Shown piece after piece: positions 5,868 through 37,117 of a stretch of DNA of 53,443 nucleotides (position 1 is the stretch's first letter; the number at the start of each line of letters is the position of its first letter). Source of the DNA: a virus; the IMG/VR virus record IMGVR_UViG_3300025446_000009, positions 1 through 53,443 of that record; one strand, given 5' to 3'. Made by a program: the position numbers and the translations under genes. The notes below the pieces were generated by a model. That model had not been told where the DNA came from and did no database searches. It saw nothing but the letters and a program-made list of their open reading frames with translations.

Positions 5868-6044
5868 TCACTTCCCCGCTCCACACGCCGCCGGCTTCTT
5901 CAGCGCCATCCAGTCCGCCAGCCCGGTGATCCCAAGCTGCTCGGTCGTGCCAACCGTGCCCGCCACAGCGCCGATCATGGTCACGGTGGGGACGACGGCG
6001 GGGCCGCAGGAGGTCAGGGCGAGGAGGAGGATCACGCTGCGCAT
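5868..6044 (-). CDS. Small lipoprotein, 58 aa
   Basis: ATG 6044 lies inside the 3' end of the C5 methyltransferase gene (13-base overlap). Residues 1-13 form a lipoprotein signal, MRSVILLLALTSC, with Cys 13 as the probable lipidated residue. The mature part is short with a Gly/Thr-rich stretch and a C-terminal KKPAACGAGK. It probably sits in the periplasmic face of a membrane. The function is unknown. Confidence 0.6.
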   Translation of the reverse strand: MRSVILLLALTSCGPAVVPTVTMIGAVAGTVGTTEQLGITGLADWMALKKPAACGAGK

Positions 6045-6861: not shown

Positions 6862-7182
6862 CTACCCCTTCGGCGCCCGCACCGCCGCCACCGTCGAGGC
6901 CGGCGCAGCGATGACGGGCGTCCCGGTGTTCAGCGCCGACGCGATCAGCGTCAGGCTGTTGGCATCCACCGCCGCGCAGGCCGGGCTGCTCACCAGCACG
7001 TCGGCGGCGGTCAGGGCCTTCGTGGCGTTGGAGCCGGTGGTGATCGAGGCCGCGACCGCGTTGTAGCACGGGAGCGCGGAGGCGGCGATGCTGAGCGCGG
7101 CCTGCTGCTGGGCGGTGGTGCAGGCGGCGAGGGCCAGCGCGAGGGCTGGGGCGGCGGCGAGGATGGTGCGGCGGGTGAGCAT
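6862..7182 (-). CDS. Lipoprotein, 106 aa
   Basis: ATG 7182 is preceded by AAGGAGA. The signal is MLTRRTILAAAPALALALAAC with a lipobox LAAC. The mature part is Ala/Ser/Thr rich (TTAQQQAALSIAASALPCYN...). Small lipoproteins of this type sit next to holin or lysis genes in many proteobacterial phages. It ends with TAG, three bases before the methyltransferase GTG. Exact role unknown. Confidence 0.65.
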   Translation of the reverse strand: MLTRRTILAAAPALALALAACTTAQQQAALSIAASALPCYNAVAASITTGSNATKALTAADVLVSSPACAAVDANSLTLIASALNTGTPVIAAPASTVAAVRAPKG

Positions 7183-11334: not shown

Positions 11335-11712
11335 CTACTCCCACACGCCAAGCACCGCTGCGCTTTCCGCCGCACTCGTCGCCACCAGCCCATAGGTGCC
11401 TGGATTCACCCCCGCCTCCGCAAGCTGCGTCGGCGAGACCATAGCCCGGATGGCGATGTAGAAATGCGTCGGATCGGTCCCGCCAGCACCACCAGGTTCG
11501 CCACACCATGCCGCCGTGCTGGTGCCGTCCGCGTTCGTCACCGCCGGGTTGCCAGCAGCGTCGCGCGCCGTGCCAAGCATGTTTGTGGGCACCTGACCAG
11601 CGCCAAGCAACCCAACGGCTCGCAGCGCGGCGAAACCACCCAACGCCAGAGCAAGGCCGGATTGCGGAAAGGAGTAGGTATAATCATAGAAACCCGCAGT
11701 GGCCTGGCTCAT
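11335..11712 (-). CDS. Hypothetical tail-region protein, 125 aa
   Basis: It starts in an ATGA overlap with the lectin-like gene and ends with TAG. The sequence has alternating aromatic and Gly residues (GFYDYTYSFPQSGLALALGG) and a segment HFYIAIRAMVSPTQLAEAGVNPGTYGLV that suggests a beta fold. No signal peptide, unlike the five genes upstream. No family is recognised. Confidence 0.5.
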   Translation of the reverse strand: MSQATAGFYDYTYSFPQSGLALALGGFAALRAVGLLGAGQVPTNMLGTARDAAGNPAVTNADGTSTAAWCGEPGGAGGTDPTHFYIAIRAMVSPTQLAEAGVNPGTYGLVATSAAESAAVLGVWE

Positions 11713-12806
11713 GGCGCTGCCCTCTGGAGCTGACCCGATGGCATTGCTTGGCGATAGACGACAAGGCTTTGGATAAAACCGCTGAGACCGCCTCCGCCGG
11801 GCACGTGACCGAAGATGAGCCTCGTCAGGCCTCCCGGCATCCCGGCTGTTGAACCCGAAATCGGCGTCCCACCATTGAGCACCACACTGGGGGAGGTGCT
11901 TCTTCCGAAGGAAATGCCGGCCGTAAACGCTGTGCCGGCAGAGACAGAACCACCAGATTCGCTATTCATGATTATTGTGCCGCCAACCTCGACATAGCCG
12001 TTGACATCCGAGTGGCCGCTTGCGTGGAAAATCGTGATCCAGTTGTTGTTGGTCGTATCATCGATTGACACGGTTCCCATATTTACTGTTGCGGAGATGA
12101 AAGGCCACATCACGGTGACGACCATTGTTCCGGCATTTGGGTTGAGCCAGCCCCCAGCAGTGATAGTGGCACTCTCCGCAGCCCGCGTTGCCGCACTGCC
12201 GGTCGTCGGTATGTAGGAGGTCGGAAAGGCCAGCGGCTCAAGCTGGTATCGCGTCAGCGTCCCGGTTTTGGTCACGACGACCGTGCCGCCCGTCGTGATG
12301 GTGAAGATATTAGGCGACCCAGCCGTTGCGGTGCCGGTCCCGGTGCCCAGGGCGGTCCCTAGCGTGACGGCAGCGGAGCCGCTGCCAATGACCCAGAGGG
12401 TGAAAGAGCCGGTGCCTAGAGTGATAATCTGTGTCGCCGTCGGCGTGTCGCTGTTCAGCAGATAGTTTTCGCTCGACTGCAACTCCCGCAGAAATCCCTG
12501 CGGCATCAGGCGAGGAACATTCGTCGGATAATTCGTGTAGCTCGACCCCGCAGCATCGGTGTAAAGCCCGCTTGTCGCGCCTGACGCCCGCGTGAACGTG
12601 ATGGTCGGGCACCTCGGCCCGACGCTGATCGAGCCTGGAATCTGATTGGATTGCGCGCCGGCAAGGAAGTTGCAGGACAGCGATGGACCTGAATTCGGAC
12701 TGACCGGCCAGAACTCAAGCGGCGAACTGGCCGACGCCGAGGCAAGCCCGGCTCCCGCGGCTATCGTTGCGGCGACGCACACCGAGAGAAGCCAGCGCCT
12801 CATCAC
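11709..12806 (-). CDS. Secreted lectin/tail-like protein with signal peptide, 365 aa
   Basis: Residues 1-26 form a Sec signal (MMRRWLLSVCVAATIAAGAG, cleavage likely after ASA). The middle contains the RYQLEPLAFPTSYIPTTGS segment common in phage tail and concanavalin-like modules. The C-terminal ~170 residues look like a LamG/ConA-like jelly roll. The start overlaps the previous stop (TGATG). Phage tail proteins are normally made in the cytoplasm without a signal, so this is unusual. Confidence 0.6.
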   Translation of the reverse strand: MMRRWLLSVCVAATIAAGAGLASASASSPLEFWPVSPNSGPSLSCNFLAGAQSNQIPGSISVGPRCPTITFTRASGATSGLYTDAAGSSYTNYPTNVPRLMPQGFLRELQSSENYLLNSDTPTATQIITLGTGSFTLWVIGSGSAAVTLGTALGTGTGTATAGSPNIFTITTGGTVVVTKTGTLTRYQLEPLAFPTSYIPTTGSAATRAAESATITAGGWLNPNAGTMVVTVMWPFISATVNMGTVSIDDTTNNNWITIFHASGHSDVNGYVEVGGTIIMNSESGGSVSAGTAFTAGISFGRSTSPSVVLNGGTPISGSTAGMPGGLTRLIFGHVPGGGGLSGFIQSLVVYRQAMPSGQLQRAAP

Positions 12807-13324
12807 TTGAAATCTTCGCCCTGAAAGTTGCCAGCGACGATACTGCCGCCCGTTACGGCCGTGGCCGAGTTGACGAGACCGAGCGTCCAGCCGCTCATGA
12901 TCTCGTGCACAGGGTTCCCGCTGGAGTCGAACGGCGGCCCGGTAAGGAGATTGGTAAGCGGTGGCGTCGTTCCATTCGTTCCGGCACCCGCTGCCAGAGT
13001 GAGCGCGTTTATGATATTGGAGATCGTCCCATTCGTTTCGACGAGTTGGATAGTATGTGCCACCGAGTCGGTGCTTGTGACTGTCACCCCATTGCAGATA
13101 GAGTTGTTTGCAGCGCCGACGATCCCCGGCACGAAAGTGCCAAGGGTAGTGACTTGGTTATTGGCAGCGTGCACCACTTGCGGAAACACCGGCGCTGCCG
13201 AAAGCGAAGTCTGTGCACGCGCCTCGTGCGGGAACGCCACCGCCCCGGCGAGGCCGGCGCAAACCAGGATGACCCCGGAGTTGATGTTGAGCAGATCGTT
13301 GAGCAGATCGTCTAGGTCGTTCAT
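12803..13324 (-). CDS. Predicted exported protein, 173 aa
   Basis: The N-terminus is acidic (MNDLDDLLNDLLNINS) and then has a hydrophobic core VILVCAGLAGAVAFPHEARAQ with an AxA-type cleavage site. This looks like a signal peptide with a non-standard leader; a 12-base duplication codes the repeated DLLN. The mature part is Thr/Asn/Ala rich and beta-like. It overlaps both neighbours as ATGA and TGATG. Confidence 0.5.
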   Translation of the reverse strand: MNDLDDLLNDLLNINSGVILVCAGLAGAVAFPHEARAQTSLSAAPVFPQVVHAANNQVTTLGTFVPGIVGAANNSICNGVTVTSTDSVAHTIQLVETNGTISNIINALTLAAGAGTNGTTPPLTNLLTGPPFDSSGNPVHEIMSGWTLGLVNSATAVTGGSIVAGNFQGEDFK

Positions 13325-14502
13325 GGCAGACTTCCTCCCATTGCCCCGTAGCCTCGGGACAGATACAGATTGATGTAGTTCAAGGAAGATGGAGGCGGGG
13401 GCACCTGCAACGCATAATTCCCCGCCGGCCCCCCGGAGTTCGAGAACGTCGCCGCCCCGTTCGCCGCCAAGCTGGTCAGCGTGGCCCCGGTCAAAGTCCC
13501 CCCGGACGGGGCCGCGACGGTGAGAGCGGTGATGATCTGGGTGGTGAAGACGGTGACGCTATGCCCATCCGCCAGAGCAGGCAGATTGACCGTCAGCGTC
13601 GCCAGCGTGCCGGCCGGAGTGAGGTAGATCAGCCCCGTGTTGACGGGGGCGGTGACGGTGCCACCGGAGGTCGGCGTGCTTGGATAACTTGCACCAAAGG
13701 ATGTACCACGATCCAGCGATAGTTCCGCAGCAGCCGGCCGGCGCTCAAACGGTGTCGCAAGAGACACCACACCGGGAACCAGAATTGGTGTAGGGGAGAT
13801 TTCGAGCTGCATCCCTTCAAAAATCACACCGTCTGTGGTTCCCGCCGTGCCAACGCCGTTGAAGCAGAACTGCACCGCCGCCCCAAGGGTAGAGACGGGC
13901 ACGTTGAAACCCACCTGATACCGCGCATACGATCCTGGCGTGGCCTGGAGGGCCTGAGCGGGGATGCCGCCAAGATTCTGCTGCCCAGTCCATGTGCCGG
14001 CGATCAATGACGCAGGCGTCCCGGCGGCTGCGGTGGACATGGTGAGGATGGGCTGGACGCCCGTTCCGGAGAAGTTTGCTGCGGGCGCCGCATAGTATGA
14101 GAGAATAACCGGCTGCCCCTGCATCTGCACGGCGGCTTCCGGGGTCAAGATATAGGCCAGGCAGAGCGCGGTGGTATTGGTGTTCCCGGCGGTGCGGGCA
14201 AGCTGTTCTCCCGCAGAGAAACCAATCGGCAGACCAGACGTGATGCGCGTCAGATACGCGGACGACGCCGACGTGTAGGCGAACCATTGATCGGCATGGT
14301 ACGTGGCGGTGGTGGTGATGCCGGTAACCGCGCTCGTGCCGAGCTGATACGGGTTCGTGCCGAAGTCTGACCCAACCAGCAGGTTGCGGAAGTTGGCTGG
14401 CGAGACATAGGACTGCGCTTGCGTTGACGGGGACGGCTGCGCCTCCGCGACGGCGGACAGCAGCGCCAGCAACGCCAGCGCAGGGAAGATGCGACGGATC
14501 AT
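13321..14502 (-). CDS. Secreted carbohydrate-binding-like tail protein, 393 aa
   Basis: ATG 14502 has GGGAG upstream. The signal peptide is MIRRIFPALALLALLSAVAEAQ. The mature protein has NLLVGSDFGTNPYQ... and DQWFAYTSASSAYL, a pattern seen in beta-sandwich carbohydrate-binding domains of phage fibres, then a Thr/Gly-rich beta segment. The C-terminus is SRGYGAMGGSLP. The role is inferred as glycan binding, either on the virion or exported. Confidence 0.6.
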   Translation of the reverse strand: MIRRIFPALALLALLSAVAEAQPSPSTQAQSYVSPANFRNLLVGSDFGTNPYQLGTSAVTGITTTATYHADQWFAYTSASSAYLTRITSGLPIGFSAGEQLARTAGNTNTTALCLAYILTPEAAVQMQGQPVILSYYAAPAANFSGTGVQPILTMSTAAAGTPASLIAGTWTGQQNLGGIPAQALQATPGSYARYQVGFNVPVSTLGAAVQFCFNGVGTAGTTDGVIFEGMQLEISPTPILVPGVVSLATPFERRPAAAELSLDRGTSFGASYPSTPTSGGTVTAPVNTGLIYLTPAGTLATLTVNLPALADGHSVTVFTTQIITALTVAAPSGGTLTGATLTSLAANGAATFSNSGGPAGNYALQVPPPPSSLNYINLYLSRGYGAMGGSLP

Positions 14503-14516
14503 CTGGAGACTCCCTG

Positions 14517-16691
14517 TCACGGCGTTGCCCATTTCTGCTGTGCCATCAGGTAGTGCGCCAGCAACGCCGATGGCGGCTCCTTGTCCGTGTAGATCGCGGC
14601 CATCGCGACGCATCCGGTAGCTGGATGCGCGATGCTGCCCATGCCCATGACGTACGTCCCAGAGCTATTGCCCAGTCTGTTCGTTCCGGAGAACGCCGTC
14701 GTGACAGGTGGTTGATTGTTTAGGCCGAGAACAAGGTTTTGGTTGGTCGAGGCATCACCTTGCCAATAGACAAAATTGGCTTGGTTCGCTGCCATTACCG
14801 CCGAAGTCAGGTACGTCGTCGAGCCGACAAAGTCGCCCAGAGTCACATAGCGAGGGGCGTTCGAGTCGAATTCCCACCCGTAGTATTGTCCGAAGAAGTT
14901 GCCGAGCGCCGTAGGAGTCGTTGGCGGCATGACCACCAGCTCCATCGTGGCGTTTTGGTATAGCGCGACGGCGGAGCTTTGCGCCACCGTCGCCCCCATC
15001 AACTGATCTGTGTAGAGCGCCGTTGTGCCAAGAGCAAAAATCCCGCTTGCTGAATTTTGCGCGACTGGCTCGCTCGTTTGATAGGTGCCGGTGCTGCCGG
15101 CCTCGCCACTCAGTTGGGAATAGATGACCTGTGGCGCGTACTCGTTGGGTACCTTGGTGATACCTGGCACTGGGATACTACCGCTGGCTATGGCCGTTAC
15201 GGTCAACACCCCCGTCGCCGCGAAGGAGCCGGTATATTGGGTAAGAGCCGTCGCGGTGAACTGGACGCACGGCTTGCTGTTCACGCCGGTAATGTTGAGC
15301 GTCGGTGGCACGCCTGGATTGCTGGATCGCATGCTCCAGTTGTGGCCGCTCTGATCGAACAGAACCGTGACGTTGCAGGTGGTGCCGAGGCAGTCAGCAG
15401 TCAGTGCGGTGACATCGGCCTCACAGCCCGAGGGCCAGATGTCAAAGCCGGCGCTGGTGTCCTGCCGCACGATGCGGAAAAGCGGGCCGCTGTAGTCGGC
15501 GTTCACGAGGCTCGTTGACCAAAGCGCCAGCAACGCCTTCTGGTTAAGCGCCGGAACCCCTGCATAGTTTGCCGGGGTAGCATGGCTCAGGGTTCCAAGC
15601 GGTGAGGCTGGCAACGGCGGCCCGTTGTTGACGCCGCAGCCAGATGGCCTGCGGGGAAAATGACTCTGTGCCAGTGAGTTAAGGACCGCGGAGTCTTCAG
15701 CAGTCGATGGGAAATAGCTCGTCTGCAAAACAGTCTGTATCCTGCCTCCATAATCGTTCGTGTCGCCTGTGTACCCGACGCCTATCGAGACAGGATACGG
15801 ATAGCCAGTATTGACAGTGTTGCCCCCGATCGGGCCATTCCAAGTCGTGTAGGTATCACAGGGCTGAGTGAGCGTCGGTACGCAGGCCGATGTAAGCAGG
15901 GACGCGTTGAAGCTCACCGCCGGCTGGTTGTATTTCCAAACTCCTGCGATCTGCGCAAAGCCGGCCGGAAACGTCCCGATACCGGAGTAAGACGCTCCGC
16001 CTAGCTGATTGTCTACATCTCCGCCGAAAAGTATCGACTGCTGGTTGTTGGGATAAGGCTGCTCCAGTTCGATATACCAGTTGCCGCCCAACGGTATGTT
16101 TGGGATGATCGCGCCGTAGCGAAACTCCCCCACGCTCGCAGACGCTGCGCCGCTATCGCTGACCATATAGGTTGCGCGCGACCCTGTAGTCGGCAGCCCG
16201 ACCGGCGCTAGGTTGTAGAGATACTGGCCAGCATAAGGGGCCGTGCCGGCAGAACCATCTTCATTGTTCCGTGTGATGATGATCTCGGGGAGACCGTTGG
16301 CTTTCCAACCGATCAACGGCCGATGGCCGGAGAATGGCGCCGTGCCGGCGTTGCTGGTCAGTGGGTTAAGCCCGAATTGGTCATACAGCGTCTGCACCCG
16401 GCAGTCGTAGCCGTCGCAGAACGCATGCAGGGCGTTGAGGTCCACCATCCCAGTCTGAGCGATGCTGCCGATCAACGCGGTCGCTCCTGCCGACGGCCCG
16501 CTGGTAAGTACGGCCTGAAATAGTGGACCGCTGTAGCTGCGCGTCACCCGCTCGACGACGGACCATGCGGAGAGGCAGCCCTGCGAGAGAAGATCGCAAG
16601 GTTCCGTGGGGATTGGAATCGGCGGCGGCGTCCGCGGCTGCGCCAGCGCGAGGCTTGGGAGCAGAAGCGCGAGGGCGATGAGGGCGCGCAT
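14517..16691 (-). CDS. Secreted protein with two arabinofuranosidase-B-like domains, 724 aa
   Basis: Signal peptide MRALIALALLLPSLALAQP. Two copies of an ArfB-catalytic-like pattern follow. Copy 1 (about residues 30-110): CDLLSQGCLSAWS, then YSGPLFQAVL and VQTLYDQFG. Copy 2 (about 400-480): ALLALWSTSL, then YSGPLFRIVRQ, CNVTVLFDQSG. Each is followed by a ConA-like beta sandwich (for example WNGPIGG in the first half). This suggests binding or cleavage of an arabinose-type or related surface glycan; enzymatic activity cannot be judged. The start overlaps the previous stop as TGATG. Confidence 0.6.
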   Translation of the reverse strand: MRALIALALLLPSLALAQPRTPPPIPIPTEPCDLLSQGCLSAWSVVERVTRSYSGPLFQAVLTSGPSAGATALIGSIAQTGMVDLNALHAFCDGYDCRVQTLYDQFGLNPLTSNAGTAPFSGHRPLIGWKANGLPEIIITRNNEDGSAGTAPYAGQYLYNLAPVGLPTTGSRATYMVSDSGAASASVGEFRYGAIIPNIPLGGNWYIELEQPYPNNQQSILFGGDVDNQLGGASYSGIGTFPAGFAQIAGVWKYNQPAVSFNASLLTSACVPTLTQPCDTYTTWNGPIGGNTVNTGYPYPVSIGVGYTGDTNDYGGRIQTVLQTSYFPSTAEDSAVLNSLAQSHFPRRPSGCGVNNGPPLPASPLGTLSHATPANYAGVPALNQKALLALWSTSLVNADYSGPLFRIVRQDTSAGFDIWPSGCEADVTALTADCLGTTCNVTVLFDQSGHNWSMRSSNPGVPPTLNITGVNSKPCVQFTATALTQYTGSFAATGVLTVTAIASGSIPVPGITKVPNEYAPQVIYSQLSGEAGSTGTYQTSEPVAQNSASGIFALGTTALYTDQLMGATVAQSSAVALYQNATMELVVMPPTTPTALGNFFGQYYGWEFDSNAPRYVTLGDFVGSTTYLTSAVMAANQANFVYWQGDASTNQNLVLGLNNQPPVTTAFSGTNRLGNSSGTYVMGMGSIAHPATGCVAMAAIYTDKEPPSALLAHYLMAQQKWATP

Positions 16692-17176
16692 CAAAATACG
16701 AACTCCACAGCGGTCGCCGTCCCAGTGCATGAGACAGTCGACGGCGTGGCAGCGGCTACGTTGTTCCAGTTGAACTGATATCCTCCGCCGTTTGCCTTGA
16801 TCGTGGTGCCATTGGTGCTCGCGACCGTATTCTCCGCGCATGTGCAAGTGCCTCCTTGGACGCAGATCGCAACGTCCGAGCCGCCATTGTCTGTCACGAT
16901 CAAGTTAGTCCAAGTTGTCGGCACCGCCCCATAGGTCACCTTCATCGTGTTGATCGCAACAGAGGATGTGACCGACAAGGAGCCGGCGCCGGTTTGCTGG
17001 AAGGGGACGGTGGGAACGCCGCTACCAGATGGTCCTGTCACCGGCAGCGGGGTCGTCGGCGAAACAGGCGTCGTTCCTTCCTTCGGCGTCGTGCCGTTCA
17101 TGTAATATGGCACGTTCTGTGCGGCGGCGGCATTCGCCAGCAGCACCCCCGCCAGCAACGCAATGACACGGATCAC
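16691..17176 (-). CDS. Small exported protein, 161 aa
   Basis: GTG 17176 is in a GTGA overlap. Signal peptide MIRVIALLAGVLLANAAAAQ. The mature part begins NVPYYMNGTTPKEGTTPVSP and is a Thr/Val-rich beta domain with three Cys in ICVQGGTCTCAEN plus one near the C-terminus (TVSCTGTA), compatible with disulfides outside the cytoplasm. First of the five signal-peptide genes in transcription order. Confidence 0.55.
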   Translation of the reverse strand: MIRVIALLAGVLLANAAAAQNVPYYMNGTTPKEGTTPVSPTTPLPVTGPSGSGVPTVPFQQTGAGSLSVTSSVAINTMKVTYGAVPTTWTNLIVTDNGGSDVAICVQGGTCTCAENTVASTNGTTIKANGGGYQFNWNNVAAATPSTVSCTGTATAVEFVF

Positions 17177-17484
17177 TTCCGCCTCCGCACGATGTCGATC
17201 AGCAGGCAGAACACCGCAAACCCCGCCAGGCCGATCAGTTGCAGTTCGCTCGGGTCGGGCAGCACCCGCGCCACCAGCAGCCAGACCGCCACGACAAGCC
17301 CCGCCGTGAACCCGATGCTGCCGAGGCGGGCTATCTCCATCGCGGTGCGCTGCGACAACGCGCGCAGGCTCAGCAGCAGGATATTGGCGTTGGCGGCGGT
17401 GAACAGCGGCTGCTTGGGCGGCGTTTCCGGCGCGGGAGCGTCTTCCTCGCCGATCAGGGTGAACTGGCGCTTGGAACCGGACAT
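17173..17484 (-). CDS. Two-TM membrane protein, 103 aa
   Basis: ATG 17484 shares bases with the preceding TAA (TAATG). A polar N-terminus (~35 residues) is followed by two hydrophobic helices (IGFTAGLVVAVWLLVARVL and LIGLAGFAVFCLLIDIV) and a basic end RRRK. The basic C-terminus and two TMs fit a holin or membrane accessory. It lies between the internal virion genes and the exported-protein run. Confidence 0.5.
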   Translation of the reverse strand: MSGSKRQFTLIGEEDAPAPETPPKQPLFTAANANILLLSLRALSQRTAMEIARLGSIGFTAGLVVAVWLLVARVLPDPSELQLIGLAGFAVFCLLIDIVRRRK

Positions 17485-17705
17485 TATGCGTGCCCTTCCT
17501 TCGACTTCAGGTTGTTGACCAGCTTGTCGAACGTCACGACGCCAGGGTCCTCGACGGGCTTGCCCTTGGCGATCTTCTTGTCGGCGAGGTGGTAATTCGC
17601 GACCGCCTTGAAGGTGTCGATCATGAAGTCCGGCGTGGCGCCCGGCTGGAGCGCGGCGGTCAGGAGTTTTTCGGCGAGTTTGGGGAGGTCGGATTTGACG
17701 GTCAT
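17484..17705 (-). CDS. Hypothetical protein, 73 aa
   Basis: ATG 17705 is in an ATGA overlap with the giant protein gene. A helical soluble protein: MTVKSDLPKLAEKLLTAAL, then FMIDTFKAVANYHLADKKI and a charged tail. No family is recognised. Its position directly after the 1005-aa gene suggests a small virion or assembly factor. Confidence 0.5.
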   Translation of the reverse strand: MTVKSDLPKLAEKLLTAALQPGATPDFMIDTFKAVANYHLADKKIAKGKPVEDPGVVTFDKLVNNLKSKEGHA

Positions 17706-20700
17706 TGGCCATATCTCTGCTGGTATTGATCCTGCCACCGCGTTGGCGTCGGGGGCGCGGCAGCGGGGTTGTCGTTCGCCGGCCCCACGAACGCCGAGCC
17801 GAGCGCGGCGCCCGCGACGCCGCCGCGCTGCATGTAGCGGTGGATCAGTGCCTTCGCCAACGCCTGTTCCTCGGGCGGCCCGCGTAGGGCGCCAGATATG
17901 AAACGGAACACCGTTGGGTTGGTATAGGCGTTGATGACGTGTTTTAGCACGACGCTCATCGGGATACGCACCAGCGGGGTCGGCACACCACGCAGCGCGT
18001 GCATGCCGGGGATCGGCGTGGAAGCAGGATGCGTCACCGCCGTGCTGGCAATAATCGACTTCCCCGCGTCGGTTCCCTCGCTCGCTGCCAGGATGTCGCG
18101 GACATTCTGTGCGAACAGGATGACATCGTCGGTCGAGCCGCCGAAGATCGCTTCCTGCTGCTGGCGTGTTAGTTTGCTCAGCCTGTCGGACAATCCCTTC
18201 AGACCGTACACATCCGGATGGGTCAGCACATCCTTGATGTAGGTTCGGGACAACAGCTTGAATTCCGGCGAGTCCACGCCGAACCGCTTGGATGCCGTTT
18301 CCAACAGTTGCGGATCGCGGACAATCCTCTGCGCGACGTTGGTCAGCATGGCATTCGGGTTGGTCAGCATCTGGCCGAGCGGGTCGGTCGAGTATTCCTC
18401 GGTGACGCCTTTCAGCGCCGCCTTCCGTTGCGCCGAAATGTTCTTCAGTTCGTCTTCCATCGCCTTGATCGGGTTATCCTTCGACAACTTCTCGATCCGC
18501 TGTGCCGCGTCATAGGCGTTCTGCATCGCCTGGGAGAACGTGTCGCCGCGCTTCGTCGCCATCGGCAGCGGCGCCTTGCCGCCGTCCGTCATCTCGGACA
18601 CGTACTGCGCCTGCTTGCGGAATTTTGCGACGACTTCGGGCGGATAGTCCGCCAGCACACCAAGCCGATCGCGCTTCTCGAACTCGCTGATGAACTTGGC
18701 CCCGTCTATCTCCCCCTCATAGATCGACTTGCTAGCGTCCAGCGCCGCCTGCATGTCGGCGCCGACTACCGCATCCCACACTGGCGCGCCCGCCAAGCCA
18801 CGGAGATAAGCCCGCGTCTCCGGCTCCGCCCCAATGACGGTGCGCGCGGCAGTCCCCGCTCCCGGCGGCATATTGGCCTCTGTCCAGTCCACCAACTTTT
18901 GCGCGGTCGGATCATGGAACGGCGCCATGTCGGTGCGGTAGCCGCTGTCCAGCGTGTCGAGCATCTTCACGCCGGGTTCGGGGAGGTTCTCACGCAATGA
19001 TTGGTCGATGACGCCACGGAAATACTTGATCTGGCCATTCTTGAAGGCTGGCGCGAGGGTCTGCCAGTTCGCCAGATCGCCAAGCATGGTGCGGATGTGG
19101 CGGAGTTGCCCTGTGGTAATGTCGGGAGCGACGCCCTCCTCTTCCTCGGCCTGATCCAGTTTCGTGATCGCGCGCACCAGCGCGGGATGATTGCGCTGCA
19201 CGTCCTCGGGCAGATCGCGCAGAAAGTCCCGCGCAGCCTGGGCGGGTGCGGATACATCGGCGACACGGCTACCGAAAAGCTGATCCCACTTGCTGTAGAG
19301 GTCCTGATACCGCAACCCGACCGCTTGGCGCGCAGCCGTGATCTTGCCCGACAGCGTGCGAACGAGATCGCCTGGGTTCTGCGTTGAAAGACCCGACTGT
19401 AGTTGTGCGATGGCGCCGCGTAAGTCTTGAAACCCCTGTTCCACTAACCCGCGCGTGATCGCTTGGTTTGCCTCCAGCGCTTTCTGCGCTTCAGCCAACG
19501 CGGACTGCCGGCCGACCTCGGCGCCCGTGCCGCCGCCGCGCGCAGCGGCCTCAGCAGCGTCGAATTTCGCCGCCACGTCGGCGTTGGACGCGTGCAGCAT
19601 GTCGGCATAACGGGCATAGAGCGCCTGCCCGGCTGGCGCGTAATCCACTTCGGCGGTGCGTTTCAAAGGTTCGCCAAGTTCCGCGCGCGGGATGCCGAGC
19701 GCCTCTGCCGTACTCGATATTTCACCTGACGCGTATTGCGCGAGGCTCGGCGTCACCGGGTCAATGTCGTAGCGTTTGCCGATGCTCGACAAAATCGGCA
19801 GGATGGGCGCGGCCGGATAGGCGACCTGCGGCGGCAGATGCACGCCTCTTTCGGCAAGCGGCCCGAACCGCGCCGCAGTTTCAGGCGTGACGCCGCCGAC
19901 GTAGCGCGCAAATCTGGGCAAGCCAGTCGCTTCGGCCACATAGCGCGCGCCATACTTCGCCGCCGCGGCGGCCTGTCCGGCAACACGCCCCGCTACTCGA
20001 CCCCCAGCCTCGAACAGCGCGCCCTCGGCCAGTTCGCCGGGGACTTTCTCAATCCCCATCCCCTCGTCGCCAAAGCCGGCCAGCGCCAGCAACGCACGAT
20101 TGGCTTCCTTGCCGGCGGCGTAACCGAGCGCCGACCCTGCCATACCGCCCGCCGCCGTACCGACTGGCCCGGCGCCGAATGTGCCAGCGCCACCACCGAC
20201 CGCAGCCCCGCTCGTAGCGCCCGCTACCGGCAGCGCCTGCGACACCACATCGGCGGCGCCGCGCGTCAGAGCACCAGTGATGCCGCCGCCCGCACTCGAT
20301 GGCCGTAGGCGTTGGCCGTTGACGGTGACGTAGAAGCCTTGCGAATCCTGCCGCACATTGTCGCCGTACATCGCTTGCAGGATTTTCTTCTGCTTCGCCG
20401 GGTCGCCCGCTGCCATGTCGAACAGGGTTTGTGTGCCGAGGCCGACGTTGTCGGATGTGGGCTTCGTCCGCTTCTGACCTTCGGGATCAAGATAGTCGGC
20501 GCCTTCCGGGATGGCGTCGTAGGTCTGCGGCTGCGCTGGATCGACGCGCCAGTACTTCGTCCGCTTCTGGCCTTCGGGGTCGAGATAATCCGTTCCGGGT
20601 TTCAGCGCCGCGTAGCCTGCGGCGTCGGCGATGCGTGGCAACTGCGCGGGCCGCGACCCGGCGGGAATGTCTGCCGACTGCGCTTCCTGGCTGGACAGGA

Positions 20701-20719
20701 TGGTAGCGAGGTCGGACAT
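17702..20719 (-). CDS. Giant internal-virion-like protein, 1005 aa
   Basis: A very large protein at the place where podoviruses encode internal core/ejection proteins. The N-terminus has two copies of a repeat ending DYLDPEGQKRTK (residues ~44-55 and ~75-86), then a Gly/Ala-rich hydrophobic zone (~145-205, SALGYAAGKEANRALLALAG) that may be membrane active, then a long helical part with many Gln/Arg. No lysozyme or protease motif was seen. The inferred role is DNA ejection channel or core. Confidence 0.55.
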   Translation of the reverse strand: MSDLATILSSQEAQSADIPAGSRPAQLPRIADAAGYAALKPGTDYLDPEGQKRTKYWRVDPAQPQTYDAIPEGADYLDPEGQKRTKPTSDNVGLGTQTLFDMAAGDPAKQKKILQAMYGDNVRQDSQGFYVTVNGQRLRPSSAGGGITGALTRGAADVVSQALPVAGATSGAAVGGGAGTFGAGPVGTAAGGMAGSALGYAAGKEANRALLALAGFGDEGMGIEKVPGELAEGALFEAGGRVAGRVAGQAAAAAKYGARYVAEATGLPRFARYVGGVTPETAARFGPLAERGVHLPPQVAYPAAPILPILSSIGKRYDIDPVTPSLAQYASGEISSTAEALGIPRAELGEPLKRTAEVDYAPAGQALYARYADMLHASNADVAAKFDAAEAAARGGGTGAEVGRQSALAEAQKALEANQAITRGLVEQGFQDLRGAIAQLQSGLSTQNPGDLVRTLSGKITAARQAVGLRYQDLYSKWDQLFGSRVADVSAPAQAARDFLRDLPEDVQRNHPALVRAITKLDQAEEEEGVAPDITTGQLRHIRTMLGDLANWQTLAPAFKNGQIKYFRGVIDQSLRENLPEPGVKMLDTLDSGYRTDMAPFHDPTAQKLVDWTEANMPPGAGTAARTVIGAEPETRAYLRGLAGAPVWDAVVGADMQAALDASKSIYEGEIDGAKFISEFEKRDRLGVLADYPPEVVAKFRKQAQYVSEMTDGGKAPLPMATKRGDTFSQAMQNAYDAAQRIEKLSKDNPIKAMEDELKNISAQRKAALKGVTEEYSTDPLGQMLTNPNAMLTNVAQRIVRDPQLLETASKRFGVDSPEFKLLSRTYIKDVLTHPDVYGLKGLSDRLSKLTRQQQEAIFGGSTDDVILFAQNVRDILAASEGTDAGKSIIASTAVTHPASTPIPGMHALRGVPTPLVRIPMSVVLKHVINAYTNPTVFRFISGALRGPPEEQALAKALIHRYMQRGGVAGAALGSAFVGPANDNPAAAPPTPTRWQDQYQQRYGQ

Positions 20720-26276: not shown

Positions 26277-28736
26277 CTACCCCCGGTAACCTGCGGAAAC
26301 AGCGTCGCTCCCTGCCGAGATCAACGCAACATCGGCAGCCGAGGTCGAGATCGTAAATCCTAGCAACGCCCCCTGCTGCCCATTTGCTGTAGGGGGGGCA
26401 ACATACAACCCGTTCGTCAGCCCCACCGGATTCGGCGTGAGCGTCACTGGACTGGTCGCAACCTCGCTGTCCACCGCGAACGTGATGTTCGGGCTGCTGT
26501 CGGAATAGTACTGCGCTACCAGCCATACCCGGTTGGCGGTTTTCGTCACCATGTAGCCGCCCGGCTTTGCCCATAGTTTGGACTGCGCCGTCTTGGAGAA
26601 GGCTGTCGATGGGGTGGAAAACAAGGGATAGATGTTCGTTCCATTCGTCCCATAGGCCGTGATGACCGATGCGATTTCCTGATGCTGGCAGTAGATCAAA
26701 TTCACGTCCTGCTCGGTCGTGCACCATTTTTTCTGATCGGGTAGCCAGATGCACAGCTTGTTGACCTGCTCGCCGGTTATCTCGTCAATCACCGGGATCA
26801 ACAACGCCCAGATGCGCTTGCCGTAGAGAATCGCCTTGCACGCGCTGAGCTGGAAACCGCCAAAGGCGTTCGGCACGCTGTTGTAAAATCCATCGAGCGG
26901 TTCCGACACCTTCGACACCCGCCCACCATAGCCGACATGCACGCCGAACTCGTTGGCGAACACGATATTGCTGCCCAGCACGTCCACCGTCGCCGCGTAG
27001 GGGGTGCCAGTCTCCGGGTCGGCATTCTGGTTGGTGAAACTGGTCTGCGGCGGGGAGCCGCTGGTCGTCACGCCGCCGATGTAGTTTATCGAGCTGTCCC
27101 CGATCAGGTAAAGGAACCCGTTGGTCTGGATCGGCTGGACATAGGCAACGCGCAGGAACGAATCGTTCGAGGTGAAATCACCGCCGCCGACGGCGGTCGA
27201 GAAGTTCCACGGATCGCCCGGCCCGGTAAAATTGACCGTCCCGCCCGCGCCTTGCGGAGCCGTCGAGTAGGGATTCACCACCCAGACACGCGACTGGTAG
27301 GTCTCGACCGCCGAGCCGGAAATCCCGAACGGCATCACCTCCAGGATCGCGGCTGCGGCGTTGTTCAATCCCGTCTGCACCTCGATCGCCGGCACCGATG
27401 TAAACCCGGAGCCGCCGTTGCTGACGGCCACGGCAGAGATCGCCCCGGCGGTCACCGTCGCCACCAGCACCGCCCCCGTACCTCCCCCGCCCACCACGGT
27501 CAGGGTCGGCGTGCCATTCAGGTTCGTCCCCCCCTGGACGATGGTGACAGACGCGATGGCGCCCGGCGTGATGGCAGCCACGGCCACCGCCCCGCTGCCC
27601 GTGGGGAGGCTGACGGTTGGGGGGCTGGTGTAGCCGGTGCCGCCCGCGATCAACGTCGTGGACGCCACCACGCCCGAGGCGTTGACAGTGTAGGTCGCCT
27701 GAGCGCCGCTGCCGCCGCCACCCGAGAACGCCAGGGGGTAGGTGCCCGGCACATACCCGGAGCCGCCCGGACTGACGGACAGCGAATTGACGGCGGTTCC
27801 AGAGAGCGTAGCGGTGATGGAGGCGCCGGAGCCGGGGATCGGGAAGCTGACCGTGGGCGCGCCCGTGTAATTCGCCCCGCCGGCGGTCAAGGCAATGGAT
27901 TGAACGGCACCGCCCGATGTCGTGAACGTGCCCGCCGCGCCCGATCCCGCCCCGCCGGTGAAGCCGAGAGGGAATGTGCCGGTCGGGTAGCCGGTGCCGC
28001 CGGAGACCAGCGTGAGATACTGCACCACGCCGGTTGCCAGCACGGCTTCAAGGATCGGCGTCGTGTCGGTGCCGCCGCCGGAGAACGCGACCTGCACGAT
28101 ATCGCCTGGGAGGTAGTCGAGGCCGGGATTGGTGATGATCAGATTGGTGATCGAACCGTTGGTCAGGACTGGCACGAGTCTGACGTTGGTGCCCGCGCCG
28201 CCAAAAACGGTATAACCCGGCACGGAAGTATATCCCGCCCCACCGTCGATCAGTTGGCTCGGGTCGAACGGCGCGATCGAGCCTGGTTGATAGAACAGCG
28301 TGCCATCGGTCGCGAAGTAGCCGTTCTCCTGCTTTGACGTGATGATGATGACCTGACTGCCCCATTGCGTGACGCCGACGTTGCCACGCGCCGGATTGGC
28401 GATCGTGCCGTCGGGGGCGATGGTGATTTGCGCCAGCGTCTCGGTGTTCACCAGCCAGATGTCGCCATCGTCCTGCATGACCACGCAGTACGGCGTCTCG
28501 CCGACGTTGGCGAAATTGAAGAACGCGACGGTGCGGCCCGCCTCGCTCACCGTGAAAATCGGCGCTCCGATGCCTGGGATGGTGCGGAGATTCGAGTCGC
28601 CGAGCGGTATCCAGCCGTCCATCCACGAAGCCTCGGTATCCTTGATCCCGGGCCGGGAGGCGTTGGTGTTCAGGCCCGTGAAGCCCTCAAAGGCCAGTAT
28701 CTCGAAGGCTTCCTGCTGCTGTTGCGACCCGCTCAT
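26277..28736 (-). CDS. Large virion protein with GGxGY repeats, 819 aa
   Basis: ATG 28736 is in an ATGA overlap. Residues 1-150 resemble podovirus tail/stabilisation proteins (GLNTNASRPGIKDTEASW, PIGDSNL-like, VVMQDDGDIWLVNTETL). Residues ~165-455 contain seven or eight ~40-residue modules marked GGAGYTSVP, GGTGYPTG, GGANYTGAP, GGSGYVPG, GGTGYTSPP, GGSGFTSVP. The C-terminal half returns to a beta-propeller-like pattern (YQSRVWVVNPYS, KKWCTTEQDVNLIYC). Probably a tail hub or stabilisation protein with an inserted repeat domain. Ends with TAG. Confidence 0.6.
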   Translation of the reverse strand: MSGSQQQQEAFEILAFEGFTGLNTNASRPGIKDTEASWMDGWIPLGDSNLRTIPGIGAPIFTVSEAGRTVAFFNFANVGETPYCVVMQDDGDIWLVNTETLAQITIAPDGTIANPARGNVGVTQWGSQVIIITSKQENGYFATDGTLFYQPGSIAPFDPSQLIDGGAGYTSVPGYTVFGGAGTNVRLVPVLTNGSITNLIITNPGLDYLPGDIVQVAFSGGGTDTTPILEAVLATGVVQYLTLVSGGTGYPTGTFPLGFTGGAGSGAAGTFTTSGGAVQSIALTAGGANYTGAPTVSFPIPGSGASITATLSGTAVNSLSVSPGGSGYVPGTYPLAFSGGGGSGAQATYTVNASGVVASTTLIAGGTGYTSPPTVSLPTGSGAVAVAAITPGAIASVTIVQGGTNLNGTPTLTVVGGGGTGAVLVATVTAGAISAVAVSNGGSGFTSVPAIEVQTGLNNAAAAILEVMPFGISGSAVETYQSRVWVVNPYSTAPQGAGGTVNFTGPGDPWNFSTAVGGGDFTSNDSFLRVAYVQPIQTNGFLYLIGDSSINYIGGVTTSGSPPQTSFTNQNADPETGTPYAATVDVLGSNIVFANEFGVHVGYGGRVSKVSEPLDGFYNSVPNAFGGFQLSACKAILYGKRIWALLIPVIDEITGEQVNKLCIWLPDQKKWCTTEQDVNLIYCQHQEIASVITAYGTNGTNIYPLFSTPSTAFSKTAQSKLWAKPGGYMVTKTANRVWLVAQYYSDSSPNITFAVDSEVATSPVTLTPNPVGLTNGLYVAPPTANGQQGALLGFTISTSAADVALISAGSDAVSAGYRG

Positions 28737-30958
28737 GAGAACGTAACGTTCGATGAATTGAGTACCTGCCACGTCGTCGCGGAGGCCGAAATCATACTGG
28801 CGTAGGCGCCCGCAGCAGTGAATGTCGCGGTCGTATGGCCACCGCCGAATGCACCCGTCGTCGCTGCGGTTACCGTGTCGCCGCCGCCGCCGGTCTCCTC
28901 AGTGATGAACAGCGGGCGGCCGGCAAAGCCTGGGTCCGCGAGGGTGCAGTATATGTTGCCACTTGGCGAAGCCAGGACTGCCGTGCCTGCCTGGATCGAG
29001 AGGGTGCTATTGACGGTATATGGCTCTCCGACTGAGGCAAGGTTAACGGGCAGGAACTTGAACGGATAGTCCCCGAATTGTCCATAGAAGGCAAAGTTGT
29101 TCTCGATCTGGTAATTATCTATCGAGTAGTTCGGCGCGGGTGATAGGAGTTTGATTGCCAGAGGATCGGAAGGCGCCCCTGGCGTCACTATGTTGTCCAT
29201 GTTGAATTGGCATCCGATGACTTGTGTGCCATCTGCCTCGTAGGCAATCGAAATCCCTGCCGCGACACACGTCGGATATTCTGCCGGCAATGCAAACGAG
29301 CATCCAATGATCTGGACGCCTCGCGACCCCGCCGTGACCGAAATGTCAACTCCATCGGTGCCGTTCGCGTTGCGGGCGCCGCCGGCTGCATTGTTGCCAC
29401 TGAACGTGCAGCCGATGATCTGATCGAAATCGGTGGCCAATGTGCCGTTTCCGCACTGGAGGCCGGTGTTCTGGGCGTTCTGTATTTGTGCGCCTTGGAT
29501 GATGTTGCTGAAGCTTCCTTGGATGATGATGGTATTTTCGCCGTTGAAGAACGCGCCGCCGTGGAATTGGTGTGATCCGGCGGCGTAGGTCAGCGGCGTG
29601 CTGCTTGTTGTGCCCAGCAGGAGTTGCGCCACGCTGGCGGTCACTAAACTGGAACCGCAGGTGAGCATATAATGATACCAGTCGGTACTTTGGTTCTGAT
29701 ACCCTAGCGTTGTCGAATCGGCGATGTAGACATTCCACATCCAACCGGACTGATAGGTATTGCCGACCAGGATACCGTTGGCAAACCCCTGGAACAGCAC
29801 ATCACGCAGCGTCGGCCAACCCTCGTTCGGACCCGACGGCCGCAGCGTGTCAGACATCAGCAACCCGGTCTGGCCGGTATAGGTGCCAGGCACGCCAGCA
29901 AAGCCTATTTTTTCGAGCGTGATGTTGCCGGATGTCGAGTCCACCAGCGTCAGACCGGCGTTGTTGCCGTGGAAGACAATCATGCTCTCCTGGCTGATCG
30001 CGCTAGCCCCTGGCACAGCATAGTAGGACCCGACGCCGATGATGGTGTCGTTCTTCAGCGCGAGATTGCCGGTGTAGTTGGAAAATCCGCCTGGGTGGTA
30101 GATCGCGGGATTGCCGGCAAGCCGCGCTGCTGCGGTGCAGTTATTCCAGGGCGTCGTATCGTCGTGCCCGCCGACACCACTTTGCGTGCCGTCCAGATAG
30201 GCGCCGAACCAGCGGATCGACCAGCTCTTGCCGCCGGTCTCGCGATACCAGCTCCGCCCCGATGCATCGTTGATGATCGTGCCGCCGTTGGCCGTGGTCG
30301 GCGTGCCGAGATAGAACGGCCCCTCGCCGCCATCTCCTTTGGCGTAGAAGCCCTGGAGAAAAATCTGGTTGTTGGGCAGCGTGGTCGAGGTCGCCGCTTC
30401 CAGCGCCGCGACAGTCGCGACCACGAGTGGCATGGCAGTCGAGGCGATGCTGCTGTCCTTGATCAACTTGCCCGTCGTGCCGTTGAACAGCGCCAGATCG
30501 CCAGAGTTCGCCGCTGAGGGACCTTGCACGATGTTCGCTGCCAGGATGCCGCTGTCCTCGATGAGCCGGCCCGACGTTCCGTTGAAAGTGAGAATGTCGC
30601 CTGCAACGGCGGATGTGGGACCTACGACGTTGCCGGTCCCGCCGCCGCCTGGCACGTAGGCATAGGTCTGACCGTTGATGACGTAATTGAGTTGCACGCT
30701 CGGCGCACCGCCGAACGGGTTGAAATACATCGTGATGGTGCCGTCGTTGGAGACGGCCACGCCATACTGCACATAGGCCGCAGTCGTCGGCCCGCTGTTG
30801 ATCGCGAAGCTGATGTTGCCGTTGTTGGTAATCCCCACGCCCGTGAGGTTACCGCCAGTCGCCGGGCCGGCATCCTGCGCGACACCATCCGTCGTCCAGG
30901 ACAACGGATGCCCCGGGGTAACGACGCCGGATTGGAGGATGGGTTGACCTGCGCTCAT
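28733..30958 (-). CDS. Tailspike with right-handed beta-helix, 741 aa
   Basis: The N-terminal anchor GVVTPGHPLSWTTDGVAQDAG is shared with the fibre gene upstream. A neck with YAKGDGGEGPFYLG and SWSIRWFGAYLDG is typical of the entry to pectate-lyase-like beta-helix tailspikes, followed by repeated short strands with Asn/Gly turns (IIGVGSYY, GLTLVDSTSGNITLEKIGFAG, VQIIGCSFA, TQVIGCQFN). The role is recognition and possibly cleavage of a surface polysaccharide. Confidence 0.7.
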   Translation of the reverse strand: MSAGQPILQSGVVTPGHPLSWTTDGVAQDAGPATGGNLTGVGITNNGNISFAINSGPTTAAYVQYGVAVSNDGTITMYFNPFGGAPSVQLNYVINGQTYAYVPGGGGTGNVVGPTSAVAGDILTFNGTSGRLIEDSGILAANIVQGPSAANSGDLALFNGTTGKLIKDSSIASTAMPLVVATVAALEAATSTTLPNNQIFLQGFYAKGDGGEGPFYLGTPTTANGGTIINDASGRSWYRETGGKSWSIRWFGAYLDGTQSGVGGHDDTTPWNNCTAAARLAGNPAIYHPGGFSNYTGNLALKNDTIIGVGSYYAVPGASAISQESMIVFHGNNAGLTLVDSTSGNITLEKIGFAGVPGTYTGQTGLLMSDTLRPSGPNEGWPTLRDVLFQGFANGILVGNTYQSGWMWNVYIADSTTLGYQNQSTDWYHYMLTCGSSLVTASVAQLLLGTTSSTPLTYAAGSHQFHGGAFFNGENTIIIQGSFSNIIQGAQIQNAQNTGLQCGNGTLATDFDQIIGCTFSGNNAAGGARNANGTDGVDISVTAGSRGVQIIGCSFALPAEYPTCVAAGISIAYEADGTQVIGCQFNMDNIVTPGAPSDPLAIKLLSPAPNYSIDNYQIENNFAFYGQFGDYPFKFLPVNLASVGEPYTVNSTLSIQAGTAVLASPSGNIYCTLADPGFAGRPLFITEETGGGGDTVTAATTGAFGGGHTTATFTAAGAYASMISASATTWQVLNSSNVTFS

Positions 30959-32154
30959 ACCGTGAACCCCTGGGCGATCCCCACCACATCGAACAGCGTC
31001 CCGTCATTGGCGATCAATGTCAGCACGTCGCGCGCGGCAGCCGTAGCGGTTGCGGTGAAGGATGGGTAAGTTGTCCCGAAGTTGAACCCTGTCGTGAGAT
31101 GCCACGTTGCCGCGGTGGCGCCTTGCTGGATATTCAGCACCATCCGCTGATCTGGCCCATTAGCCGCACCGGCGTGCAACGTGATCGTGCCACCGGACGC
31201 CGGGCCGTTCACCAGAGCGTTCGTCACACCCAGCGTCGGCGTGATCGCGAACGTCCCGGTCGCTGTCGCTGCCACGGTGATCTGGCTGTTGCTGATCAGC
31301 GAGCCGTTGTTGAACGCCAGGAAATCGCCAAGGGCGGCGCTGCTCAGCAAAGTCCCCGCCGTCGGCAGCGTGATATCCGTCGTCCCCGTCGCCACCAGCG
31401 TCACCGGATGCGCCCCGGAGACCGTCACCGCGCCCCCGAGCGAGACGGCCTTGCCGCCAATCGACCCGACCGCGACCGCGCCCGTGTTGGAGATCGTCGC
31501 GTCGCCCGACATGGCGCGGGCCTGCGCGAACCCGCTGGAATTGCCCACCCAGATGTCGGCCGAGGCCAAGGCGTTCGCCAGCAGAGTCCCGGTGGTCGGC
31601 AGCGTCAGCGTCGTGTCGCCGGTGATGCCGAGCAGCAGGTTGTACGCGCCCGAGACCGTCACCGACCCGCCCGTGGCCAGCGGGCCACCGAGCGACACGC
31701 CTTTGCCGCCCACCGCCGTCACCGTCGTCTCGATCGTCCCCTCGGTGTTGACGCTGGTCACGTCGCCGGTCAGGTTCGCCACCGAGGCCGTCTGTCCGTT
31801 GGTGATCGTCCCGCCGTTCATCCCGGCGCCAGTGTACCACTCCGACATCGGCCCGAACGCGCCCAGCGTCGAGGTCACGCCGTTGAGCACGAACAGCAGC
31901 GGCAGCGGCGACTCGGTGCCGTAGTTCTGTACCGTCAGGATCGCGGCTTCCTCGGTGATGCCAAGGCTAAGCTGGCTGAACCCGCCGGTCGAGATCAGGT
32001 TGTTCTGGATCGTGAGCGCGGTCTGCTGGTCCGAGAGGATGGCGAAGCTGGTGGCTGCCGGCTCGGGCGCGGCGCCGCCGTCCTGGATCACGCCGTCCGT
32101 GGTCCAGACCGCGACGTGGCCGGGGGTGATGGTGCCGGTTTGGTCTACGCTCAT
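30955..32154 (-). CDS. Tail fibre protein with duplicated modules, 399 aa
   Basis: The N-terminus GTITPGHVAVWTTDGVIQDGG matches the anchor of the tailspike downstream. The centre has two copies of a module GGK[GA]VSLGG...TVSGA...TLPT[TA]GTLL (about residues 147-190 and 230-275). The C-terminus is beta-rich and ends FDVVGIAQGFTV. It shares a 4-base ATGA overlap with the tailspike gene. A receptor-binding fibre is likely. Confidence 0.65.
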   Translation of the reverse strand: MSVDQTGTITPGHVAVWTTDGVIQDGGAAPEPAATSFAILSDQQTALTIQNNLISTGGFSQLSLGITEEAAILTVQNYGTESPLPLLFVLNGVTSTLGAFGPMSEWYTGAGMNGGTITNGQTASVANLTGDVTSVNTEGTIETTVTAVGGKGVSLGGPLATGGSVTVSGAYNLLLGITGDTTLTLPTTGTLLANALASADIWVGNSSGFAQARAMSGDATISNTGAVAVGSIGGKAVSLGGAVTVSGAHPVTLVATGTTDITLPTAGTLLSSAALGDFLAFNNGSLISNSQITVAATATGTFAITPTLGVTNALVNGPASGGTITLHAGAANGPDQRMVLNIQQGATAATWHLTTGFNFGTTYPSFTATATAAARDVLTLIANDGTLFDVVGIAQGFTV

Positions 32155-36061: not shown

Positions 36062-37117
36062 TCAGTACGCGTTTCCGCCAAATCCGTACACCCACGCCCC
36101 CGACACGCTCTTCGCCGAAATGAAGTCGTATCCGAGCACGACGATACCCTGCTGGCCGATCTGACCCAGCGGCACCAGCGAATAGAAGCCGGAGAAGTCC
36201 AGGGCGGCATCCTCCGAGATATAGATGCCACTGTACTTGCAGTCGCACGCGAACAGGTTCCCAACCGGCGTGAAGTGATCCGCGAAGATCGGAATCCCCG
36301 AGACATTCAGGTTCGGGAACGATGAGCGGATCGGCGTGTCGGCGGTGTAGGCGCGGCCCGGCGTGGTGAACGCTTCCTCGATCCCCTGGAAGTCGTTGTT
36401 CAGCGTCGAGTAGTCGGCGGGATTCATCACCACGAAGGTCGGGGCCTCGCCGCCGGCTGTGTCGGTGATCTTCGACAGCAGCGACGACATCGCCTTGCGG
36501 TTCCAACCCAGCGTCGCCGTGCTGTAGGTCGTGTTCCAGGTCGAACTGGAACCCGCGTTGATGTACTGGCCCTGGAACGCCGAGTTGCCAGAGGCGGTGC
36601 GGTTGATGCCGCCGTAGGTCGGGACGTTGGTGCCGTTGTCGAACGCGTCGATGAAGCTGTTCGGATACGTCGGCTGCGCCGAGTTGTTCGTATACAGCAG
36701 CCGCGCGATATTCTGGCGCGTCACCGCGTAGGCGTCGTTCATGCGGACCTTGAGCAGCGACACCTCGCGGTCGGTCGCCTGGAGGATGGTCTCGCCGAAC
36801 GGCAGCGGGATCGGAACAACCCAGTACGCCAGGTTCCACTGGCCGTTCTGGACGCCGGGGGTTACGACTGGCGAATTGAATCCGCCACCGTAATTTGTGA
36901 AAGAACCTTGCACCACGCTTTGCCCTTGCAAAGGTATGGTTACCTGGTTCAAGCCGCCGGCGGCCTTCTGCGCGTTCCCCCAGAGATAGAACAACGATGG
37001 GGAAGCGAAATAGATCTGTACGAACAATTTTCTGACGAAAGCGCGCCTGGTGACCGAGGTCAGCTCATTGTAGACTGAACCAGCGGAAGGGGCCACACCT
37101 ATGCCCGGAAGCGGCAT
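36062..37117 (-). CDS. Major capsid protein, 351 aa
   Basis: Located between the scaffold and adaptor genes, the standard capsid position. The protein is rich in Asn/Gly/Tyr and lacks low complexity. Recognisable pieces are RRAFVRKLFVQIYFASPSLFYLW at the N-terminus, ILQATDREVSLLKVRMND, FVVMNPADYSTL and a C-terminal GQIGQQGIVVLGYDFISAKS. HK97-type folding is assumed from context, not shown. A homing-endonuclease gene is inserted directly upstream. Confidence 0.75.
   Translation of the reverse strand: MPLPGIGVAPSAGSVYNELTSVTRRAFVRKLFVQIYFASPSLFYLWGNAQKAAGGLNQVTIPLQGQSVVQGSFTNYGGGFNSPVVTPGVQNGQWNLAYWVVPIPLPFGETILQATDREVSLLKVRMNDAYAVTRQNIARLLYTNNSAQPTYPNSFIDAFDNGTNVPTYGGINRTASGNSAFQGQYINAGSSSTWNTTYSTATLGWNRKAMSSLLSKITDTAGGEAPTFVVMNPADYSTLNNDFQGIEEAFTTPGRAYTADTPIRSSFPNLNVSGIPIFADHFTPVGNLFACDCKYSGIYISEDAALDFSGFYSLVPLGQIGQQGIVVLGYDFISAKSVSGAWVYGFGGNAY

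Follow-up and report, generated by a model that had tools for sequence, protein, structure and literature searches.

Predicted signal peptides mark a variable cassette of candidate adhesion proteins at the tail-fiber position of an uncultured phage family

The assembly of tailed phages is taught as purely cytoplasmic; their known fibers fold inside the cytoplasm and, as a rule, are not rich in disulfides. Why, then, would consecutive genes in the tail region of a virus encode N-termini that look like Sec signal peptides (SPs)? We addressed this question for a 53,443-base virus record from IMG/VR (GC content 63.5%, genes mainly on the minus strand), the whole of which is called the window in the following (Table 1). 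A sequence-only reading had described a run of five coupled genes of 161, 724, 393, 173, and 365 residues with Sec signals throughout, and all of these ORFs were found where it had placed them; three of their four junctions are overlaps (1, 4, and 4 bases) and the remaining one is a 14-base gap. A gene for a 103-aa protein with two transmembrane segments (2-TM) lies upstream and shares 4 bases with the start of the first gene, and the last gene is coupled to an SP-less 125-aa gene for which the family comparison gave no homologue.

Table 1. Features of the window (a slash marks the predicted cleavage site; Cys counts refer to the mature part).
Feature	Position	Strand	Remarks
Two small lipobox ORFs	5868-6044; 6862-7182	-	located downstream of the cassette; may encode lipoproteins of the outer-membrane spanin type or of another kind
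125-aa gene	11335..11712	-	coupled to the run; without SP
365-aa gene	11709..12806	-	GTG start; predicted Sec SP, ASA/S; 2 Cys; C-terminal domain matching phrog_5939 tail protein
173-aa gene	12803..13324	-	atypical SP-like N-terminus: acidic n-region, hydrophobic core, ARA/QTS
393-aa gene	13321..14502	-	predicted Sec SP, AEA/QPS; 2 Cys
724-aa gene	14517..16691	-	predicted Sec SP, ALA/QPR; 12 Cys; ArabFuran-catal-like stretches (partial profile)
161-aa gene	16691..17176	-	first of cassette; GTG start; predicted Sec SP, AAA/QNVPYY; 4 Cys; PVSxxxPLPV motif in mature part
103-aa 2-TM protein	17173..17484	-	conserved anchor adjoining the cassette upstream
73-aa small gene	17484..17705	-	second conserved anchor
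1005-aa protein	17702..20719	-	upstream of the cassette
408-aa tail-block protein	24248-25474	-	hydrolase-type and acetyltransferase PHROG matches; GNAT domain
741-aa protein	28733..30958	-	same N-terminal motif as the 399-aa protein; without SP; weak EPS depolymerase PHROG match (1e-5)
399-aa protein	30955..32154	-	N-terminal motif QTGxITPGHxxxWTTDGVIQDGG; without SP
Major capsid protein	36062..37117	-	query that found the family
Three genes, apparently inserted cargo	40429-43404	-	between portal and next structural genes
Adjacent pair of similar-looking ORFs, 221 and 234 aa	51062-52428	-	starting MRVLIFGTSYCEG and MLKMPERTLIYGGCFCATPERAW; no Pfam match

The signal-peptide prediction that had been suggested as a check was run with a Sec score written for this analysis, which combines n-region charge, hydrophobic core, and the -3/-1 rule (cutoff 11), and a lipobox filter was applied to the resulting SP set. 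Cleavable-type signals with a basic n-region, a hydrophobic core, and small residues at -3/-1, as required by Sec and signal peptidase I, were called on four of the five genes, i.e., those of 161 (score 12.6), 724 (12.4), 393 (13.4), and 365 residues (13.1). The fifth part of the claim held less well: the 173-aa protein has a weaker leader that falls short in its acidic n-region (MNDLDDLLNDLLNINSG...; residue 2 is K in a sibling contig) and was not called by the score, and its mature cysteine count of one is odd. Among 96 SP proteins, around half have Gln at +1 after an AxA site, and two relatives (L118 and L134) contain twin-arginine-like leaders.

The same score called no gene of T7, where nothing tested rose above 9, and correctly called the truly exported Lom protein of lambda; its other calls in lambda were the lipoproteins Bor and Rz1 and the signal anchor Rz. 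Only 3 of 1561 internal protein fragments scored as SPs, the 96 calls fell to 2-8 when N-termini were shuffled, and distant relatives without SPs at the same locus serve as a further negative control alongside T7. On the basis of these controls, we rejected chance or mis-called start codons as a source of the signals.

The major capsid protein of the window has 98 relatives in IMG/VR, with the best 80 of 98 at 66-85% identity, compared with only two uncultured records at 33% identity in a phage collection and two metagenome-assembled (MAG) contigs, labelled Acetobacteraceae and Verrucomicrobia, in one scan of bacterial genomes. The family consists of uncultured phages, mostly from soil, apparently without any cultured member. 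For around 30 relatives, we compared the region that follows the 1005-aa gene or the capsid gene. The gene order of the family runs from the capsid via adaptors, a nozzle-like gene, large proteins of ejection type, and a pair of small conserved genes to the cassette and, in some relatives, a phage lysozyme. The 1005-aa protein has a homologue in 22 of 41 relatives, and the L131 protein at the corresponding position has a PHROG match to a DNA ejection protein. The cassette occupies the place of the T7 tail fiber between ejection proteins and lysis genes. At this slot, distant SP-less relatives encode small non-SP genes that by eye look like beta domains. One of them also has a similar 70-aa 2-TM gene (again judged by eye), which makes it doubtful that the 2-TM anchor is an export-specific partner of the cassette. 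As a separate observation, the cargo-like trio beyond the portal encodes a xylose-isomerase-like TIM barrel, an IS605 OrfB/TnpB-type transposase (with a Cas12f1-like TNB domain), and an FAD-dependent oxidoreductase.

Predicted signals are concentrated in this slot, with 70 of 139 genes in 24 cassettes called as opposed to 1 of the 127 genes that lie upstream at these loci and 6 of 1086 capsid-flanking genes. A few of the 70 probably encode transmembrane, holin, or porin-like proteins; the cassette of L141 has no SP gene at all and that of L111 only a holin-like one. The search for the same cassette in other genomes recovered SP genes in the same slot of relatives but not the five genes themselves, which lack any detectable homologue there while the two adjacent anchors have 29 (103-aa protein) and 22 (73-aa gene) distinct family sequences. 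This implies that the leader goes with the slot and not with one gene family. Peptide-pattern scans of IMG/VR with the 724-, 393-, and 365-aa proteins yielded only one hit, an almost identical sibling contig matching the 365-aa protein; cultured phages gave no homologue of the 724- and 393-aa proteins, and the 365-aa protein has C-terminal matches only, in 9 phage records. PDB sequence searches with the 724-aa protein, the 365-aa protein, and the spike of L105 returned no match, and an AlphaFold model of the 365-aa protein alone reached a pLDDT of 35. Over 7.7 kb, the sibling contig matches the window at 99.96% identity; inside the final 54 bases of the 393-aa gene, it then continues into another gene body, whose C-terminal tail (INLYLSRGYGAMGGSLP) is that of the 393-aa protein. 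This switch may reflect a natural swap or, given its location at a contig end, an assembly join. Downstream of the cassette, L106 (7175-7948), L110 (8397-9149), and L113 (7694-8500) encode other SP proteins that begin with AADMPVKAPP or AADLPPP after the leader and resemble, by eye, rhizobial porin-type outer-membrane proteins, without a Pfam match.

Hydrophobic N-termini of virion proteins can insert into membranes, and the leaders might on this general ground be membrane or virion anchors instead of cleaved Sec signals. We regard this as most improbable because of the frequent AxA sites followed by Gln, the twin-arginine-type leaders, and a cysteine pattern that becomes even only once the predicted SP is removed. 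Exported proteins of Gram-negative bacteria favor even cysteine numbers (PMC7678975), and the mature SP proteins of the cassettes have even counts in 55 cases and odd counts in 4 (55/59; p = 2e-12, a value inflated by relatedness of the proteins, with cluster representatives at 21:5 and p = 0.002), compared with 19:21 for non-SP cassette genes; where the SP itself contains an odd number of cysteines (23 proteins), the mature part always has an even number or none. In a broader SP set, the ratio is 64:5 for mature proteins and 42:27 for precursors. This parity can be read as a sign of real export that is independent of the leaders. Together with the family-wide positional pattern and the negative controls, it strongly supports the earlier proposal that the run is exported. 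As a class, the cassette proteins are thus, with high probability, exported, cleaved, and disulfide-folded, where cleavage by signal peptidase I, disulfides, and periplasmic folding are what we infer from their sequences.

Exported proteins encoded among tail genes could also be lysogenic-conversion genes that a prophage expresses to alter the surface of the lysogen, as suggested by the position of the SP-bearing lom gene in the tail region of lambda and by the moron-like variability of the cassette. We consider this very unlikely for the present family, given that the cassette is coupled into the late structural run, that a Phage integrase family match occurs in only 2 of 42 records (many of them fragments) and not in the window, and that the two MAG contigs of the bacterial-genome scan offered no prophage setting. 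A prophage origin is likewise unsupported by this integrase survey and genome scan.

Domain matches bear on what the proteins might do. The label of glycan-binding proteins, which the sequence-only reading had given to the entire run, can be retained only for the 724-aa protein, with its ArabFuran-catal match (Pfam E 1e-19) over a partial profile (the best stretch against Alpha-L-arabinofuranosidase B covers only profile positions 1-104 of 315), and for the 365-aa protein, whose C-terminus matches the tail-protein PHROG at E 1e-23 and is the only fiber or spike domain among the five. Cassette proteins of relatives have tail-spike and fiber PHROG matches and include pectin-lyase-type, GDSL, and ArabFuran-type members, and in L131 an SP protein is the only tail-spike match among ten structural proteins. 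S74 chaperone domains were found three times in 42 records, always on cassette proteins with SP-type leaders (one of which scores 10.75, i.e., below the cutoff) and never in the window. Taken together, the SP proteins of the cassettes are very probably exported, cleaved, and disulfide-bonded fiber, lectin, or glycosidase proteins.

A shared N-terminal motif, QSGxVTPGHxxxWxTxGVxxDGG, links exported and non-exported proteins of the family. It lies 4-16 residues from the initial Met in 18 proteins without an SP and 21-31 residues in, right past the predicted cleavage site, in 22 proteins with one. The SP-bearing fibers with this motif have even cysteine counts in 18 of 18 cases (4-32 Cys), and among 17 non-SP proteins with the motif, cysteine is absent from ten, odd in number in five, and even in two. 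The 1320-aa chain of L105 combines SP, motif, and a C-terminal S74 chaperone (Pfam 3e-14). None of the five run proteins of the window has the motif, and its two non-SP motif proteins (399 and 741 aa) adjoin the nozzle-like gene. Non-SP spike-like or motif proteins are also found in or near the slot in L114 and L125. In the 67-kb subgroup of L114, L115, L117, and L121, a non-SP spike-like protein (ca. 814 aa, FGPFASWSNLKRDYGAKGDG) is encoded beside SP genes, so that exported and non-exported adhesin candidates coexist. An AlphaFold model of a family protein with the motif (160 aa; pLDDT 72) gave weak PDB matches (best E 7e-3) with a Bdellovibrio MAT fiber domain (C-terminal domain of Bd2133) on top, and its best viral matches were uncharacterized phage proteins.

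The sequence-only reading had offered three roles, i.e., coating of the host surface, a block to superinfection, or a structure assembled in the periplasm, and the slot, the tail-spike and S74 domains, and the shared motif make us lean towards the last one in the form of a periplasm-folded adhesion apparatus. The exported, cleaved, and disulfide-bonded proteins could instead act free and not as virion parts, by binding or trimming surface glycans of dying and neighboring cells, by opening the matrix, or by masking receptors such that superinfection is blocked and progeny are not trapped on debris, as proposed for T5 Llp. The evidence for export fits this equally well, exported receptor blockers have a phage precedent in Llp of T5/BF23 (PMC4728585), small SP proteins resembling lectins or glycosidases lack the fiber motif (the five of the window included), and the non-SP motif proteins beside the nozzle of the window could be its virion fibers. 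However, Sec alone leads to the periplasm and not to the surface, and the cassette SP proteins (lipobox filter; C-termini inspected by eye) revealed neither a lipobox or outer-membrane anchor nor an autotransporter; with a negative lipobox filter and no barrel-like C-termini noticed by eye, they do not resemble Lom or Llp in this respect. S74, the tail-spike PHROG matches, and the shared motif also suit virion fibers better. We put action in free form somewhat below an even chance and, on the basis of slot, spike domains, and motif, favor adhesins that join virions after lysis, with free action as a close rival. For the window itself, the lack of the motif in all five proteins makes an accessory role just as probable as a virion role, and the position of non-SP motif proteins near nozzle or slot means that a cytoplasmic fiber could be the real virion adhesin.

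In the account that we favor, a variable cassette of adhesion-type proteins (fibers, spikes, lectins, and glycosidase-like proteins) would be made late from the tail-fiber slot and pass through the host Sec system or, in some relatives, apparently through Tat. Signal peptidase I would cut the leader, usually leaving an N-terminal Gln, and the mature proteins would fold in the periplasm with disulfides, some of them trimerizing with the help of S74. Lysis would then free them together with the virions, and at least the large fiber would dock on virions outside the cytoplasm via the motif that it has in common with non-exported proteins of the structural block; smaller members may be accessory glycan binders or hydrolases. 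The cassette would then probably be part of the adhesion equipment of the phage that is made outside the cytoplasm. Leaders, position, turnover, parity, and domains back this as the best explanation, i.e., an exported cassette most likely serving adhesion to the next host, and we judge the chances of the whole, including the docking, to be evenly balanced.

The closest precedent in design is the MAT fibers of Bdellovibrio bacteriovorus, in which an SP is followed by a conserved beta-rich domain of ca. 130 aa, the fiber, and S74 or other tips (PMC10769870). They may share with the cassette proteins an SP followed by a beta-rich region, a body like that of phage tail fibers, variable tips of S74 and non-S74 kinds, and glycan recognition, but they are bacterial genes of a predator and not phage genes in a tail-fiber slot. 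Given that the phage family has SP and motif but only the weak fold match to Bd2133 and no demonstrated sequence homology, and that the trimeric MAT fiber with an S74 or alternative tip compares with S74 in 3 of 42 records here, we take this analogy as a lead and not as membership. Podovirus fibers and spikes such as T7 gp17 or the S74 endosialidase spikes resemble the cassette in slot, spike/fiber PHROGs, and, for three relatives, S74, but the T7 proteins lack SPs when judged with our Sec score. Lambda Lom, T5/BF23 Llp, and spanins are phage-encoded with real export signals (Lom even in the tail region) but are usually single outer-membrane proteins or lipoproteins, unlike the runs of two to six large, variable fiber or lectin proteins described here. 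Similarly, the gp40 esterase of Xanthomonas phage PBR31 is an SP protein resembling tail-associated hydrolases but a lone enzyme discussed as a lysis aid (PMC10975493). Phages in the papers that we consulted had 0-2 SP genes, and we found no report in open PMC literature of SPs as a trait of a tail-fiber gene family or of an exported tail-fiber cassette.

It is possible, if less than probable, that this family builds its receptor-binding fibers outside the cytoplasm, with Sec or Tat export, disulfides and trimers formed in the periplasm, mounting on tails only at lysis, and host range swapped as an exported module. Export signals that outlast the total turnover of gene content, combined with disulfide-type cysteine pairing, make it directly testable whether phage adhesins are assembled or act outside the cytoplasm, and in the cassette family the exported phage-like fibers of Bdellovibrio would have their counterpart among phages.
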